IMG/VR virus record: IMGVR_UViG_3300046642_000488
Coordinates: 1-25,287 of that record
Origin: a virus
Length of the DNA: 25,287 nucleotides
Direction: 5' to 3' (one strand)
The notes beneath the pieces are model-generated. The model saw only the letters and a list, made by a program, of their open reading frames with translations. It did not search any database and was not told the DNA's origin. The translations under genes were made by a program, and so were the position numbers. This document shows, piece after piece, positions 6,075 to 22,458 of this stretch (positions are counted from its first letter, which is position 1; each line of letters opens with the position of its first letter).

Positions 6075-6293
6075 TCTCGGTCGTACGTGTATCCGGCACG
6101 TCGAGCCTCCGGTCGTCCCGCCATTTGGCCGGCGTCGGGACGCTGCGCCAGGGTATCCGACCGTCGCCTCCCGGTCGAGCAGGGTACGGTGAGGTGACGT
6201 TGTGACAGGTTGGGTGTCGTAGATGGGGGGCGGGGGGATGACGATCGAGCACTGTCCGGAGTCGACCAGAACGGGAGAAGGAGAGGTTCCTGG
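6075..6293. other. Non-coding gap between repressor-like gene and O-methyltransferase gene
   Basis: I see no supportable gene here. It contains the inverted repeat at 6114-6142, a G-run at 6225-6237, and a purine-rich ribosome-binding region just before TTG 6294. Minus-strand open frames cross it but have arginine/serine-rich shadow composition. No convincing sigma-70 promoter for the methyltransferase was found. Confidence 0.5.
6114..6142. terminator. Possible terminator hairpin after the repressor-like gene
   Basis: A 7-bp inverted repeat, CGTCCCG (6114-6120) and CGGGACG (6136-6142), with a 15-base loop, lies 40 bases after the repressor stop. There is no U-tract. If real it would separate the methyltransferase from repressor transcription. 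Confidence 0.3.
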
Positions 6294-6962
6294 TTGAGTG
6301 ACAGTCTCATCGTCCGGGCGCAGCTCACGGCCCAGCGCATCGCGGCAGGCGCCGGCTACGGGCTGACGAACTATCGGCACCCGTTCCGGCGTCGGGCGCT
6401 TCGGGCGGTTCGCGACGCGGGACGAACGGCGCGCACCTCGACGACGCCGCTCGAATGCGTCGAGCTCTATCAGGCGGTCCGAGCCACGGACAAGGTCACC
6501 GGCGACATGGCTGAGGCCGGCGTCTACCTTGGCGGCACGGCCGCCCTGATGCTGGGTGCGTCAGCGAAGCGGCTGCATCTCTTCGACACATTCGAAGGCC
6601 TGCCGCATGGCGAGGGCGAGGTGTTCCACGAAGGCGGCTGGGCAGGATCGGTCGCGGCCGTTCGCTCCAACCTCGCCGCCTACAGCGACCGGACCGAGTT
6701 CCATCCCGGCCTGTTTCCCGGGAGCGCGGCCGGCCTCGAGGACCTCCGGTTCTCGTTCGTCCATCTCGATCTGGACCTCTACGACTCGACCCGCGACGCG
6801 CTCGCGTGGTTCTGGCCGAGGATGGTGAGCGGGGGCGTGCTTCTGTCCCATGACTACCCACTCTCGGACGGAGTGGTCCGCGCCTTCGACGAGTTCTTCG
6901 CCGACCGTCCGGAGACCTTCCTGCCGCTGACCGGGAATCAAGCCCTCGCGGTCAAGCCCTAG
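6294..6962 (+). CDS. TylF/MycF-like sugar O-methyltransferase
   Basis: From TTG 6294 the product is 222 residues. The AdoMet-binding loop is at 70-83 (GDMAEAGVYLGGTA). DTFEGLP at 98-104, FVHLDLDLYDST at 155-166 and GGVLLSHDY at 180-188 are the family hallmarks, with the Asp residues of the third and fourth motifs expected to bind the catalytic metal. TylF and MycF methylate hydroxyls of deoxysugars; related enzymes act on polysaccharide sugars. The start is set by AAGGAG/GAGAGG 7-10 bases upstream; no in-frame ATG is nearby. It is one of only two plus-strand genes and lies downstream of the repressor, so it may be expressed in lysogens. A convergent hairpin ends the unit. I infer modification of a phage or host glycan. 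Confidence 0.85.
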   Translation: MSDSLIVRAQLTAQRIAAGAGYGLTNYRHPFRRRALRAVRDAGRTARTSTTPLECVELYQAVRATDKVTGDMAEAGVYLGGTAALMLGASAKRLHLFDTFEGLPHGEGEVFHEGGWAGSVAAVRSNLAAYSDRTEFHPGLFPGSAAGLEDLRFSFVHLDLDLYDSTRDALAWFWPRMVSGGVLLSHDYPLSDGVVRAFDEFFADRPETFLPLTGNQALAVKP

Positions 6963-7010: not shown

Positions 7011-7693
7011 TAGCTCTTCGCGACGCCGTAGATGCGGATCGTGCCCGACGCGATGTTGCCCGATGAGGCGATGAACCGGAGCGCCGTGAGTGCGGTCCCT
7101 GTCTGGGTGTACTGACTGCCCCACATGCCGTAGCGGGCCGCAGGTCCGGTGGACGTCACGTATTGCAACGTCCCCTGGATCGTGCGTCGCAGGGTCGTGG
7201 ACTGCGGGTCGGTCAGCGTCAGGCTCGCCGTCCCGAAGCCATAGCCTGCTGCGACAGACATCGTGTCGAAGATGCGGGCGACGCCCGTCGCCCCGGCATA
7301 GTTGGCCGCCGCGCCGCCGCTGGTGTAGCCGCTGAAGCCCCACTCGTACACGTTGCCCGTATCGTAGGTTGGCCCGACGCCCGTCCCGGCCTCCCAATAC
7401 AGGTGCGCCGTACTGGTCGCGAGGACGAGGTTGATGATCTCGATCTTGTACGTGTCGTATGTCGAGCTGATGAACGTCGTGAAGTCGAGCGAGGACGACG
7501 TCGACGCGGTGTGCGCCTCCAGGAAGATCAGCGCGCCCGCCGTCCCGCTACCGAGCGCCGAGACGCTGCCAGAAGAGTTGACGATCTTCGCCGAGTGGGC
7601 CGACGAGTCCACGAACACGCGCTGATGGCCGGCGGACGGACTCGCGGGCGTCGTCTGCTCGGTGAAGTCGATGTAGCCGGTGGAAGTCGCCAT
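7010..7693 (-). CDS. Fibre- or spike-associated virion protein
   Basis: This 227-residue protein is rich in Ser, Thr, Gly and Ala, with few charges. The N terminus (YIDFTEQTTPASPSAGHQRV then FVDSSAHSAKIVNSSGSV) is a motif often seen at the attachment end of phage fibres. The C terminus (SGTIRIYGVAKS) is typical of beta-rich receptor-binding domains. The ATG shares TGATG with the tailspike stop. It is probably a second receptor-binding or tail-tip decoration protein, and the last gene of the late operon. Confidence 0.7.
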   Translation of the reverse strand: MATSTGYIDFTEQTTPASPSAGHQRVFVDSSAHSAKIVNSSGSVSALGSGTAGALIFLEAHTASTSSSLDFTTFISSTYDTYKIEIINLVLATSTAHLYWEAGTGVGPTYDTGNVYEWGFSGYTSGGAAANYAGATGVARIFDTMSVAAGYGFGTASLTLTDPQSTTLRRTIQGTLQYVTSTGPAARYGMWGSQYTQTGTALTALRFIASSGNIASGTIRIYGVAKS

Positions 7694-10398
7694 CAGTTCG
7701 GAACCTCAACGTACAGGTAATCAAGGCCATCGGACGTCAGGAGCGGGTCGGCGCTTCCCGAGGCCATGAGGATCTCGTAATGCGTCGTGTTGGACGCGCT
7801 CTGTGCCTGCCAAGTCGCCGCGCTCGAGGAGGTCGCCGTCGGGACGTATCCCACCGATGGCGTGCCGGTGACCGCAACGCCGTTGATCTTCGCGACGGTC
7901 GGGTTCGGGTAGGTGCCCGACAGGTCACCGCCCGCCGTGCCAGCGACCCAGCCCGAACCTAACTGCTGGTCGGAGACGCCCGTCCCACCGCTGCGCAGGA
8001 ACGTATCGACCGCGCCGCCGCCAGCCGCCGTGATGGTGTACCAGCGGATATAGCCCTGACCGTAGTTCGATGGGTCGTAGACGTCGTATTCCGTGTTGAA
8101 CGAGCCTGACCCTGCCGACTCGCGCACGTACTGGAGGATGTCGAGGCCGTGCGACGCCTTGTGCCCGGAGGGCGCCCCGGTGTAGCAGAGGACGCGCACG
8201 ACGTTCGTCGCCGTGAGCTGAAGGATGATCCCCGGATAGTAGGTGAGCGGGATCTCGATGCCGTAGTAGGTCGGCCCGAGGATGAGCGGACCTTTCGACT
8301 CGACGAGCTCGCCCCACAGAGCGCCCGTGTAGAAGCCGCCCACCGCCAACCCGTCGACCTCGACGTTGTTCGCGAGCAGCGCCTGCGCGAACTTGATGCC
8401 GTAGGAGTTCGTGTGTGTCGGGAGCGTCGGGCTGCCGGCATACGCGCCCGGTGTGCTGATCTGGAGACCCGCGACCCGCCCGCCCTGGCACGCTGACAGG
8501 TTCCAGAAGGTGAAGGTCGGATCGTCCGGGCCGAGACAGACGAGGTCTTCCACGACGACCTCGAGGTTGTTGGCGCCACCGGTGCTGACATCATTGCCGC
8601 CCGAGATGACGGCAGCGGTGCCCGACGCGCCGGTCAGCGTGCTCTTGAGGACCGCGTAGCTGCTGGCAAGGGGAACGGTGTCGCCGTACAGCGGATGGAA
8701 GCCCGGACGGAGCGGCCCCTTGAAGCGGATGACGATGTGGTCGACGCCAGAGTGCGCGATGGTCGGCAGGAGGAGCTGCCCGTTGAACGCGCCGGTGTCC
8801 TGCAACGCACCCGCGATGACGTACAGACCGGGCGGGAAGTAGACCGTCCCGCCATCGGCCGCCGCGCAGGCGTCGATGGTGTCCTGGATCGCCGACGTGT
8901 CATCGGTCGAGCCGTCATGAACGGCTCCGTAATCCTCGACGTTGAACCAGCCGAGGTCGAACCCTCCGCCGCCGCCCGCGCCCAGCTCCTGCAACGCCGC
9001 CTCGACGTCGGTGCCGGTGAAGTACGAGCCGGCGTCTGCGATGGAAACCGCCGAGGCATCGTGGGCGTCGGTCGGATCGGTGAGGTGGGAGTCGAGCTCC
9101 GCCTCGACCTCGAGGACCAGCGCGTCACCCTCGTACAACTCGATCTCGAAGACACGCCGCGTCTCATCGTTACCGGTCAACTGCCAGTAGCGATAGGACG
9201 ACGGCGTGAACGTGTCCACGACATCCTGGGCCGTGAACGATCCGGTCGCGGTGAACGTGATGGTCGTGACCGTCGTGGCGTCGGAATAGTCCGACATGCT
9301 CGCGCCTTCGAGGAGATAGCTTCGCGAGCCGGCCGTTTCGCATCCGAGTCTAAGCCGGATATGGTCGATCTCGAACGTGCCGCCGAGTTCGATGCGGATG
9401 ACGTTCGGGCTGTCGATCTCGAGGTAGGACGCATCGTCGCCATCGTTGGCGTCCGGTCCTGCGGCGGTCCAGCCGGCCGCCCCGCCCGTGAAGTGCGCGA
9501 GGATGCGACCATCCGAGAGCGCGGTGGAGAAACGGGCCGTACCCGTGATCGAGATGCTCCCCGAGGTGATCTCGGTGGCGAGCGCGACGACATCCTCGCC
9601 AGCTGGGCTGTTGTTGCTTCCCGTGTTGCCGCTGTCGTTCGTGGTCGAGGCGGGTGATCCGTCGATGTAGATGGTGATAGCGGCGGGGACCAGCGGGGAT
9701 CCAGCCCCGACCGACCACTTAGCTGCGATGAGGTGCCAGTTGCCGTCGTTGACGGTCGTCGTCGTGTGCTTGCCTTGCCAGAACGATGTTGCGTTGAACG
9801 CGGCTGATACCTGGCCGGCAGCCGACCCGAAGGTGGTCGCTCCGATGTAGAGCTGGAAGCCCAGGCCGAATGTCCGGCGGCTGTTGAAGACGAGGATGCG
9901 TCCGGTGCTCGTGGTATTGACCCACGCCTCGATGGTCTCCTCCGTCGTCGAGTTACTCGGGTCGTAGCTCGTCTCGAGGAAGGTCGGAGAGGTAGCGGTG
10001 ACGGCGAGCCCGCCGACATACGGGCCGCTGACGCCGCGAGTCACCGTTCCGCTCTGCTCCGTCATCCCGACGGCGTTGCCGGACGAGTCGATGAACGATC
10101 CGGATGGCTCCTCGTACCGGAAATAGAGGTCGGGGTTATCGGCTAGAACCTCGGCACTCGGATCATCGGCACTGAGGCCGATGTAGACCGGGGTCCTGCC
10201 TAGCGCTCGGTTGGACGACGACGGCGGCCCTGACGGGGAGGTCGACCGCGCGGCCAGTTCGTCGATCGCCGCCTGCACCTGTTCCGCGGTCAGACCCGAC
10301 ACATCGTTGTCATACGTGACGAACTCGGCGTGGTCATGCCCGTCGTCGTCAAGGTCGCCGGCGTGGCGCGCTAGGGTGACTTCCTGGGGGACGCTCAT
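7693..10398 (-). CDS. Tailspike: lectin-like, discoidin-like and pectate-lyase-like domains
   Basis: The product is 901 residues, starting at ATG 10398 one base after the previous stop. Residues 1-52 contain [14 protein letters not shown], a trimer/attachment motif of fibres; a related [12 protein letters not shown] lies at 461-472. Residues 88-305 read like a LamG/concanavalin-type lectin ([40 protein letters not shown]). Residues 320-425 resemble an F5/8 discoidin-like domain ([27 protein letters not shown]). From 485, [20 protein letters not shown] and [13 protein letters not shown] are the start of a pectate-lyase-3 beta-helix. At 824-833 [10 protein letters not shown], a common fibre element, begins the tail. 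It likely binds and cuts a surface polysaccharide; enzymatic activity is unproven. Confidence 0.85.
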
Positions 10399-19496: not shown

Positions 19497-19515
19497 AAGG
19501 AAAGACCTCCTACGC
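19497..19515 (-). promoter_or_regulatory. Strong ribosome-binding site of the capsid gene
   Basis: AGGAGG nine bases before ATG 19496 is the best match to the consensus in the window. It lies at the end of a 94-base gap (19497-19590) after the nucleotidyltransferase gene, the longest gap in the late operon. No clear promoter or terminator was seen in that gap. Confidence 0.6.
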
Positions 19516-19590
19516 TGCGCTTCAGGGCACTAGCGCGGAGGCCACTCTCCCGGCGGGCCACGAGGGGCACTGGGCCGGTCCGTTATTCGA

Positions 19591-20214
19591 CTACGCGGAT
19601 GCTAACACACCACGTCGAGCGTTCCATCGTTTCCAGTCGTCGGGACTGTCGAAGTCCTCGGTCCGGTCATCTATGACGACGGCGTCGCCGTGGTCGGCGA
19701 TGTCGCCGAGTCGATCGTGCGCCAGGCAGTAGCACTCCCACCAGCCAGCTCGTCGGATCCTGCGGCGGCGTTTGAGGGTCAGCACGGCAGCGAGCAGCCG
19801 GTGCACCTCGAGGTAGTGCTCGGGCAGGAACGAGTTGGCCCAGATCTCGCCGTACTTCTTGCCCGTCGTCTCAGAGCCGGTGAAGCGCGCGAACAGACGT
19901 GGCTCCGGCCCGTCCGAGCAGATGGCGTCCATCGCCGCGGCGCTGTACCACACGTCACCCATGAGCAGGACGGTGCGGCCCGTCGGATCGGCGTAGGGCA
20001 TGACCGCGATCCGGCCGTCGATGCCGTCGTCGCGTGTCCGCACGCGAGGGATGCCGAGGTCGTACGGACCGGCCATGACGATGTCCGTCACGCCGCGCTC
20101 GCGAAGCAGCCGGACCATCCGGTCGAGCAGGGTCTCGCCATCGACCTTGAGCAGGTGCTTGGCACGACCGTTCCAGCGGGTCGCGCGGCCGCCGGCGAGG
20201 ATGATCGCCCTCAT
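19591..20214 (-). CDS. MobA-like/sugar-phosphate nucleotidyltransferase
   Basis: This 207-residue protein opens MRAIILAGGRATRWNGRAKH LLKVDGETLLDRMVRLL, the nucleotide-binding signature LAGG..TR...K.L...G..LL of NTP-transferases. VLLMGDVWYSAAAMDAI at about 82-98 carries the acidic residue that usually binds the metal (GDVW). The enzyme would join a sugar phosphate, or a related phosphate, to NTP, giving an activated sugar for the glycosyltransferases upstream. At 207 residues it is shorter than RmlA-type enzymes. The ATG overlaps the previous stop by ATGA. The substrate cannot be told from sequence. Its product is not followed by any other sugar-pathway enzyme. Confidence 0.78.
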   Translation of the reverse strand: MRAIILAGGRATRWNGRAKHLLKVDGETLLDRMVRLLRERGVTDIVMAGPYDLGIPRVRTRDDGIDGRIAVMPYADPTGRTVLLMGDVWYSAAAMDAICSDGPEPRLFARFTGSETTGKKYGEIWANSFLPEHYLEVHRLLAAVLTLKRRRRIRRAGWWECYCLAHDRLGDIADHGDAVVIDDRTEDFDSPDDWKRWNARRGVLASA

Positions 20215-21026
20215 CGGCCGAGCCGCGCCTGCGTGCCCTCGTAGTACTCACGCGCTTCGAAACGGTCCTTGTCGGGGACGACCGAACCGCGCTGCGGCAG
20301 GGATTCCACGAGGTCCCAGTCGATCGGGAAACGCGCCTTGAGCTCGCGCGTCGGCTCCTCCATCCCAAGCCCGCCAATGGAGAAGCCCGGGCGCATGTTC
20401 TGATGGCTGCGCGTCAGGTCGTGGCGGACCCACAACCAGGCGGGCTCGTCGGTCGCGACGTGCATCGGCGCGAGCTTCGCTGCCGACAGGTGCGACACGT
20501 CGTTGATGACCTGCCGCTTGCGGTCGACCGGGACCTGGAGCGTGCAGAACATCGGGACCGGATACGTCACTCGCTCGACGAGCCTGCCCGCCACACGCCA
20601 GCCGGCCGGCAGCGTCCAGACGATCCGGCTGGTCGGCGGCACCGATGCTGCGGCAAGGCGGATCCATGCCAGCGTCTCGGGCACGAAGGCGTCGTCGTCA
20701 TCGAGCCGCGTGGTCAGGATGGGGCCGTCGGTCCAGTCGATGTTGGCCGCCCAGCGCGGCGTCTGCGGGCGATCGGCGCCGCCGCGACGGAGCATGTTGC
20801 CGGCGGGCCTGATGATGCACGGCAGACCGGCCGATTCGATGGCGGCGATGCGCGCCTTGACCAGCACGTCGCGCGGATCGACGAGCACGATCCACGTCAC
20901 GTCACGGTTGGTCTGGGCGCGCAGCGACGGCACGGTGACGCCCTCGAGCAGGGCCAGTCGCCGCCGATTGGCGGCCGGCGGCGTGCCCGGGCCGAAGGCC
21001 GAGCGGGTCAGGATGTAGTGGCGCAT
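20211..21026 (-). CDS. GT-A glycosyltransferase, putative rhamnosyltransferase
   Basis: This 271-residue protein begins MRHYILTRSAFGPGTP then RRRLALLEGVTVPSLRAQTN. LTTRLDDDDAF (Asp109-Asp112) is the acidic DXD-type cluster of a GT-A enzyme. SLRAQTNRDVTWIVLVDPRD is the typical opening of the putative rhamnosyl transferase family found in polysaccharide and capsular clusters. The ATG lies inside the end of the methyltransferase gene (19-base overlap). The end (FPIDWDLVESLPQRGSVVP) has the usual basic C-terminal helix. The donor sugar is inferred from family resemblance only. Confidence 0.8.
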   Translation of the reverse strand: MRHYILTRSAFGPGTPPAANRRRLALLEGVTVPSLRAQTNRDVTWIVLVDPRDVLVKARIAAIESAGLPCIIRPAGNMLRRGGADRPQTPRWAANIDWTDGPILTTRLDDDDAFVPETLAWIRLAAASVPPTSRIVWTLPAGWRVAGRLVERVTYPVPMFCTLQVPVDRKRQVINDVSHLSAAKLAPMHVATDEPAWLWVRHDLTRSHQNMRPGFSIGGLGMEEPTRELKARFPIDWDLVESLPQRGSVVPDKDRFEAREYYEGTQARLGR

Positions 21027-21493
21027 CGCCGACCGTGGATGAACACGCCGGGCCGCCGCGGGTCGGCCTGCACGCAGACCGCGTCGCACGAGGCGAGGTC
21101 GAGCAGCAACGGGCAGGCGTTGTCCATGAAGCGCCAGTAGTCGAACGGGTGCGCGTGCTCGGGGAAGCCGTTGCCGCGCGCCGTCAGGATGAGGTCCCCG
21201 CCGGGACGCAGGACGCGGGCCATCTCGGCCAGCGACAGCCAGAAGGCCGAGTCGTGTTCGAGCATCTCGGTCGACACGACGATGTCGAACGATGCGTCCG
21301 GAAAGTCGAGCGCGTGGGCGTCCATCACGCGATCCACGCCCTTGCCCGACCGGAAGTCGACGCCGACATACGGACCTGTGAACAGCTGGCGGACGGAGCC
21401 GTTGACGTCGAGTGCGCCCACCTCCAGCGTCTTGCCGTCGAGTCCGTGGTGGGCGACCTCGCCGCCGACCCAGCGCATCGCTGACGGATGCAT
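21008..21493 (-). CDS. Class I SAM-dependent methyltransferase
   Basis: This 161-residue protein starts at ATG 21493 (TGATG with the stop upstream). KTLEVGALDVNGSVRQLF is motif I, YVGVDFRSGKGVD motif II, FDIVVSTEMLEHDS motif IV, and LRPGGDLILTARGNGFPEHA motif V/VI. This is the compact methyltransferase type common in glycan and natural-product clusters, where it modifies sugars or small molecules. No target-recognition domain of a DNA methylase is present, so a sugar or small-molecule substrate is the best guess. Its end overlaps the rhamnosyltransferase start. Confidence 0.82.
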   Translation of the reverse strand: MHPSAMRWVGGEVAHHGLDGKTLEVGALDVNGSVRQLFTGPYVGVDFRSGKGVDRVMDAHALDFPDASFDIVVSTEMLEHDSAFWLSLAEMARVLRPGGDLILTARGNGFPEHAHPFDYWRFMDNACPLLLDLASCDAVCVQADPRRPGVFIHGRRCATTS

Positions 21494-22458
21494 CAGGCGA
21501 CGGCCAGTGCGCCGACGCCGGCCCAGTCCATGAGCGCAGCAGCCGCGCGGCCGGCAGCCCCACTGCGGTAGGCGTACACGAGGTCGACGCAGCGCTCGCG
21601 CTCGGCGCGCTGGTCGGGCGGATCCTCCAGCGCGTGCGTCACGGCCTCGGTCAGGTCGTCGCCCTCCTCGACGTTGACGCCGACCGTCGATGCCTCCCAG
21701 AAGCGGAGGCCGTGGTCCACCTTGCGCCGGTAGAGGCGCGAGTTGAGCACGACGACCGGGCGACCCGTGGATGCGAACTCGAACAGGGTCGAGCTGCCGT
21801 CGTTGACGTAGACGTCGGCCCGCGCGCAGACCTCGGCGAAGGATCCGACGGTCTCGATGCCCATGCTGCGATAGGCCGCCGCGAGCCGCCGGATGATGCG
21901 CGGATGGCCGTGGCCGATGACCTCGAACGACGTTGCCAGGGCCGCCACCTGGCGCCTGAAGCCGTCGAACGCCGGCCGCGTCTCGGGGCAGATGGTGCAG
22001 TTCCAGTGGAACGAGACCGCGACGACTGGGGGCCCGTCGCGGTCTCGTCGGGGAAGGCTGTCGAGCTTGGCACAGCCGACGACCTCGACGCGCGCTGCCG
22101 GGTAGCGTGCGCGGTCGCGGGCTGCCGGATGGTGGCCGGGATGCATGAACAGCTCGGCGTCCCGGCCCTCGCCGCCTGCGTAGGAGCCCGACCGGGCGCT
22201 GCGTGGATCGCCGCCGAACGACTGCCCGCAGCCGTGCTCCATCATCGCGTTCCGTCGTCCCCGTCCGCGCTTGAGGTCGCCGTTGGACGCCACCAGCGTC
22301 GGATGCCGCGACGGTGGCGCGACCGCAACGACCGTGTTCGGGATGTCGGGCCGTGGCCAGCGCACGTAGAAGGTCCCGCGGGCCTCCTCCGGCAGCGCCA
22401 GCCAGATGGGCTTGATGTGATCGGCGAAGTGCCCCTCGGACGCGATCGCGTCGATCAC
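21493..22458 (-). CDS. GT-B CDP-glycerol-phosphotransferase/glycosyltransferase-like protein
   Basis: From GTG 22458, sharing GTGA with the portal stop, the product is 321 residues. MMEHGCGQSF (Glu74, His75) resembles the EHG/HGt active-site segment of TagB/TagF-type poly-glycerophosphate polymerases. VYVNDGSSTLFEFASTGRPV at 217-236 matches their ISDYSS..fEf...KPvv motif. ELFMHPGHHPAA and FEVIGHGHPRIIRR fit the inter-domain region of a GT-B fold. Such enzymes add glycerol phosphate or sugar units to a wall polymer or glycan. It is the first gene of the cassette placed between portal and capsid. The exact donor is open, as UDP-GlcNAc epimerase-like GT-B proteins share parts of this pattern. 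Confidence 0.72.
   Translation of the reverse strand: MIDAIASEGHFADHIKPIWLALPEEARGTFYVRWPRPDIPNTVVAVAPPSRHPTLVASNGDLKRGRGRRNAMMEHGCGQSFGGDPRSARSGSYAGGEGRDAELFMHPGHHPAARDRARYPAARVEVVGCAKLDSLPRRDRDGPPVVAVSFHWNCTICPETRPAFDGFRRQVAALATSFEVIGHGHPRIIRRLAAAYRSMGIETVGSFAEVCARADVYVNDGSSTLFEFASTGRPVVVLNSRLYRRKVDHGLRFWEASTVGVNVEEGDDLTEAVTHALEDPPDQRAERERCVDLVYAYRSGAAGRAAAALMDWAGVGALAVA

Follow-up and report, generated by a model that had tools for sequence, protein, structure and literature searches.

The window analyzed here (the whole stretch of DNA, i.e., one whole virus record of 25,287 bp that is itself probably a fragment) holds four genes between its portal and protease-capsid genes, which probably act as a late virion-decoration cassette, glycosylating and methylating a virion surface protein during assembly. 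These are glycan genes lying between head genes, with contents that differ among relatives, so that decoration of the phage's own particle is the probable function. The genes, and the elements that frame this portal-capsid slot, are as follows:

25243-23831, minus strand: terL
23834-22455, minus strand: portal gene, upstream anchor of the slot (PF04860, E = 1.9e-42; phrog_12)
22458-21493, minus strand: GT-B enzyme, TagB/TagF-like, 321 aa, GTG start (PF04464)
21493-21008, minus strand: SAM-dependent methyltransferase, 161 aa (PF08241; phrog_32762)
21026-20211, minus strand: GT-A glycosyltransferase, 271 aa (PF11316)
20214-19591, minus strand: MobA-like nucleotidyltransferase (NTP transferase), 207 aa (PF12804; phrog_33187)
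19497-19590, minus strand: capsid leader of 94 nt with a predicted hairpin, downstream border of the slot (alignment and single-sequence folds)
19496-17520, minus strand: protease-capsid fusion, downstream anchor of the slot and candidate acceptor (phrog_2263, E = 3.3e-35)

The location between portal and protease-capsid given in the initial annotation is borne out by these gene coordinates and by the Pfam and PHROGs anchors, phrog_2263 being a major head protein family in PHROGs (the PF04586 match of the same protein is weak, 0.0027). On the 3' side of the protease-capsid gene follow small head/tail genes, then tail genes, then early genes. One tail fibre/spike-like protein (7693-10398, minus strand) carries a pectate-lyase-like domain (PF12708), and the host therefore probably has a surface polysaccharide. 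The early region includes a small stand-alone DnaA C-terminal (helix-turn-helix) protein (PF08299; 2602-2835, minus strand) and two HNH-type endonuclease genes (PF13392; 1990-2427 and 4324-4863, minus strand, the second match weak and below the cut-off).

All four domains previously assigned from motifs (GT-B, methyltransferase, GT-A and nucleotidyltransferase) were recovered above their curated Pfam cut-offs, and structure models back the two glycosyltransferase folds. For the GT-B enzyme, the PF04464 match (E = 1.8e-8, 34.2 bits vs. a cut-off of 22.1) is confined to the C-terminal half (residues 172-302, profile positions 223-357 of 367). Its AlphaFold model, from 29 sequences, had a pLDDT of 93.9, and its PDB fold neighbours were led by UDP-GlcNAc 2-epimerases, followed by SdgB, Cps3D and TagF (3l7l, at rank 45). 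Invariant residues include H75, G76, H185, P186, D220, and S223, and the histidine and D-x-S-S regions align to Cps3D and TarL with non-significant scores; the H-G, H-P, and D-x-S-S-type motifs may thus be equivalent to the TagF catalytic residues. Score, GT-B fold and motifs all agree with membership in PF04464. The GT-A enzyme likewise combines a PF11316 score above the cut-off (E = 1.6e-11, 44.6 bits vs. 23) with a GT-A fold (pLDDT 83.9; PDB neighbours SpsA, RmlT, TarS, TarP, and a Leptospira glycosyltransferase) and an invariant acidic metal-binding motif (DDDD), as expected for a PF11316 member. Profiles and models thus make a solid case that both proteins are glycosyltransferases; donors vary among the GT-A fold neighbours, and the fold searches do not fix the donor sugars. 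The more specific suggestion of a methylated rhamnose- or glycerol-phosphate-like unit is not sustained, since PF11316 is a “putative” rhamnosyltransferase family, PF04464 is matched in its C-terminal half only and neither fold specifies a donor.

The cassette methyltransferase matches PF08241 (E = 3.3e-12, 47.3 bits vs. 21.2) and phrog_32762 (E = 3.1e-23). The NTP transferase matches PF12804 (E = 5.7e-11, 43.3 bits vs. 27), with MobA-like similarity mainly in the N-terminal signature, and phrog_33187 over its whole length (E = 4.5e-19); its nearest cultured relatives, in Streptomyces phages, share 28-32% identity over 97% of the length. No NTP transferase gene was seen in the cassettes of relatives, and the protein gave no meaningful alignment with either gp31 of phage Rctr41k or the X1 protein of L002 (see below); the L029 record also has a PF12804 match, and one relative from this gene family is located outside a slot. 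Hydropathy profiles predicted no transmembrane segment in the four cassette proteins (highest 19-residue value 1.5). A further methyltransferase gene lies outside the cassette:

6210-6962, plus strand: TylF-family methyltransferase (PF05711, E = 2.8e-18)

This gene adjoins the tail genes, runs opposite in direction to the structural operon and is absent from the examined stretches of relatives. It may possibly act in the same pathway as the cassette.

Read directly from the sequence, the gene junctions are those initially described: a 4-base GTGA overlap between portal and GT-B, a 1-base TGATG overlap, a 19-base overlap and a 4-base ATGA overlap. An overlap by itself is not special, because the genome has many of four bases, one of them between terL and portal; we therefore discarded the 4-base overlap alone as a sign of anything unusual. 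Predicted Shine-Dalgarno pairing is weak at all four cassette starts, at -1.7 to -3.5 kcal/mol, whereas it reaches -9.5 at terL, -5.9 at portal and -10.9 kcal/mol at capsid; this makes dependence on coupling plausible. The proposed coupling of the four genes to the portal gene is thus right as judged from the junctions, with dependence on it only plausible. Translation of the cassette by read-on from portal is plausible from these signals, probably with a low output, and the capsid values fit a restart of translation at that gene's own strong leader. Late expression together with particle modification is our best reading, the late timing being taken from gene position.

L002 and L003 share about 90% identity with the last ~90 nt of this leader despite differing cassettes upstream. 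In the window, the predicted hairpin pairs the capsid Shine-Dalgarno sequence, and single-sequence folds place a hairpin at the same position, with a different inner stem, in 17 phages (z -1.3 to -4.6). RNAalifold found no consensus across these 17 leaders: their alignment slides from one hairpin type to another, which also defeated a joint covariation test, and Rfam gave no match to the leader. The predicted hairpin may serve to regulate translation of the capsid gene.

Within the portal lineage, the slot reads portal, GT-B, GT-A, then variable genes ahead of capsid. Rather than being scattered in the closest relatives, GT-B and GT-A are kept at the same place, and in the lineage they are followed by a methyltransferase in L003, by another methyltransferase and a protein that we call X1 in L013, and by X1 alone in L002, L012, and L019. 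The X1 family (start like VVGKGPSLLRL), which has no Pfam or PHROG match, supplies the third or fourth gene of the cassette in several phage lineages:

L002, 6685-7269: X1 family
L012, 6200-6754: X1 family
L013, 6490-6984: X1 family
L016, 9181-9771: X1 family
L019, 8685-9302: X1 family
L036, 6207-6764: X1 family

Overall, gene order and partners vary among the cassettes of relatives. Because these loci had been picked by GT-B, we repeated the search from the capsid alone, which yielded 13 distinct phages. Glycan or methyl enzymes lie between portal and capsid in eight of them (L002, L003, L066, L070, L071, L072, L073, and L077), whereas in three (L068, L074, and L078) the capsid follows the portal directly after a gap of 108-224 bp; the L076 slot holds two genes of structural or unknown type, and that of L075 small ORFs only. 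Two of the eight enzyme-bearing phages also carry a collagen-like protein directly 5' of the glycan genes:

L072, 3430-3786: collagen-like protein (PF01391)
L077, 2990-3718: collagen-like protein (PF01391)

Head/fibre-like proteins (phrog_240, phrog_2106) likewise precede the enzymes in the slots of L016, L017, and L072. With such genes beside the enzymes, the slot holds likely surface proteins together with enzymes that might modify them. The collagen-like gp12 of SPP1 is a known capsid decoration, and the L072 and L077 proteins are possibly glycosylated head decorations. No obvious acceptor gene was seen inside the window's own cassette.

Single genes also seem to move within the slot. In the portal tree, the window falls among L002, L003, L004, and L013 (support 100/99), but in the GT-A tree it joins L016-L019 and L057 (99/97) and is separate from an L002-L004 group (96/98). 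GT-A identity is accordingly 40-46% to the phages closest by portal and 55% to L057, which has a different head gene set, while GT-B shares 79% identity with its L003 counterpart. Given this conflict between trees, single genes were apparently exchanged within the slot, and the GT-A gene of the window appears to have been swapped.

The GT-B profile retrieved 48 viral loci. In other, unrelated lineages, the gene adjoins major head (phrog_10, phrog_1328), head-protease, head-morphogenesis or connector/major-tail genes, and its neighbours include methyltransferases and other glycosyltransferases; a few loci elsewhere lie by replication or DNA-methylation genes (e.g., primase, DNA methyltransferase). 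GT-B accompanies GT-A in 16 of 17 distinct GT-A loci. Across 50,697 cultured phage records, tblastn returned a single GT-B match (Rctr41k, 39%) and none for GT-A. Pattern scans, which divergent copies could escape, found no GT-B relative in one genome per species of 84,980 bacterial and archaeal species, and no relative of the portal profile in bacterial genomes. Between the window and L003, dN is 0.15 and dS 0.65 for GT-B, i.e., a purifying selection like that of portal, and by this comparison the cassette genes are under selection and not chance ORFs.

We infer the following course of events, in which donor, acceptor, order of the steps and the particle rather than the host as target are all part of the model. 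Ribosomes finishing portal would carry on into GT-B, methyltransferase, GT-A, and NTP transferase. The NTP transferase would supply an activated donor, GT-B and GT-A would assemble a short glycan, which might include a phosphodiester-linked unit, on a virion protein exposed at the surface (e.g., capsid, tail tube or fibre), and the methyltransferase would cap it. The portal-capsid gap would then be an exchangeable slot, in which related phages hold different decoration enzymes, decoration proteins, or nothing. The comparative data favour this model, namely the recurrence of enzymes and surface proteins in relatives' slots, the head-gene neighbourhood of GT-B in unrelated lineages, the pairing of GT-A with GT-B and the cluster O layout, as do the domains, the folds, and the fixed position with weak Shine-Dalgarno signals. 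The GT-B loci away from head genes, the NTP transferase relative outside a slot and the dissimilarity of the enzymes to those of cluster O count against it.

The same enzymes could instead modify a host surface polymer (teichoic-acid- or polysaccharide-like) late in infection, so that other phages are kept out or progeny do not bind again to debris. Enzymes of the PF04464 family classically build teichoic acids, the wall-teichoic-acid enzymes TarS, TarP, and RmlT are among the PDB neighbours of GT-A, and the PF12708 tail fibre fits a host with a surface polysaccharide. We nevertheless consider this unlikely, as the cassette sits inside the head operon, includes no transmembrane or flippase-like protein and would be expressed just before lysis, when little time is left; relatives' slots hold collagen-like and fibre proteins, and the closest studied parallel (Corndog) is reported to act on virions. 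It is tempting to extend the decoration model further, with the portal-capsid gap as a general “serotype locus” of tailed phages, where a virus-specific TagF-like transferase, the commonest slot enzyme in this branch, would add a phosphodiester-linked teichoic-acid-like unit to the virion from a CDP-activated donor made by the phage NTP transferase; in this full form, we regard the proposal as speculative and rather improbable.

It is very unlikely that the genes are passenger cargo (morons) in a permissive spot with no joint function. The highly variable content, the empty slots of some relatives and the swapped GT-A would fit such cargo, but nearly all recognizable slot genes code for sugar enzymes (glycosyltransferases and others), methyltransferases or surface proteins of the virion, GT-A and GT-B co-occur, and GT-B, like portal, is under purifying selection. 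Protection of phage DNA against restriction by glycosylated bases is hardly credible: virus-encoded DNA-modifying glycosyltransferases do exist, according to work cited in PMC12619734, but the genes lie in the head operon away from replication genes, no other DNA-modification enzyme was recognized in the window's early region, and a thymidylate-synthase-type hydroxymethylase was found in none of 11 records (the window and 10 related or comparison records, most of them fragments).

Virion decoration, the reading that we favour, has implications beyond this phage. Reports of virion glycosylation so far concern mainly a few mycobacteriophages, in which a role as antibody shield is discussed. Our data suggest that a fixed head-operon slot is reused, with different enzymes, for virion decoration in uncultured environmental phages. 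These normally meet no antibodies, which raises the question of what a glycan coat does in the environment. The slot can further guide the search of metagenomes for decoration proteins and for enzymes that probably modify virions.

The closest precedent is found in cluster O mycobacteriophages, which carry O-methyltransferase and glycosyltransferase genes between portal and capsid protease (PMC4351075; PMC5968724). As in the window, four genes including a methyltransferase and glycosyltransferases occupy this slot (Corndog gp35-38; gp33-36 in Firecracker, the sequence representative of the cluster in our comparisons), and the first cassette gene of Firecracker overlaps portal by 4 bases, with 68 bp left before the protease. 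All four cassette proteins were detected in Corndog-infected cells (PMC4351075), and there are reports that the virions of Corndog, Che8, and Myrna are glycosylated and that glycosylation of the Corndog capsid requires gp38 (PMC12363180 citing Freeman 2023; also PMC11600133). In contrast to the window, cluster O has separate capsid and protease genes, no NTP transferase and no PF04464 or PF11316 match, and the Firecracker enzymes come from other families (TylF, GT2-like, GT25-like). No significant similarity was found between cassette enzymes in the pairs compared; only the TylF-family methyltransferase outside the window's cassette is related to the Firecracker O-methyltransferase gp33 (33% identity over 78 aa, E = 1e-7 in a two-sequence comparison). 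The window shares with the Corndog type the slot with apparent read-on, a methyltransferase and at least two glycosyltransferases, without homology of the enzymes, and is therefore a parallel rather than a member by descent.

Other systems are similar in part. Streptomyces phages (Rooney gp31-33) have a homologous NTP transferase in a compact glycosyltransferase-NTP transferase-methyltransferase cassette, which however follows the tail genes and draws its other two enzymes from different families (PF13524, FkbM). In Pontimonas phage phiPsal1 and Synechococcus phage S-CBS4, as in the window, head genes are accompanied by glycosyltransferase genes and by one for a homologous methyltransferase, although the glycosyltransferases are from other families and the phiPsal1 genes lie 3' of the capsid gene. 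A gtr-type seroconversion cassette would need a membrane flippase and membrane-anchored glycosyltransferases, whereas the four proteins here have no predicted transmembrane segment. The TagB/TagF/TarL polyol-phosphate transferases share the GT-B fold, Pfam match and conserved motifs with the window's GT-B, which is by comparison short, phage-borne and matched to the profile in its C-terminal half only. On this sequence comparison, the arrangement is not new, given the cluster O precedent, and the enzymes in the window's cassette differ; what is added here is evidence that points to a hypervariable slot for decoration and to a TagF-like family borne by phages and linked to head genes.
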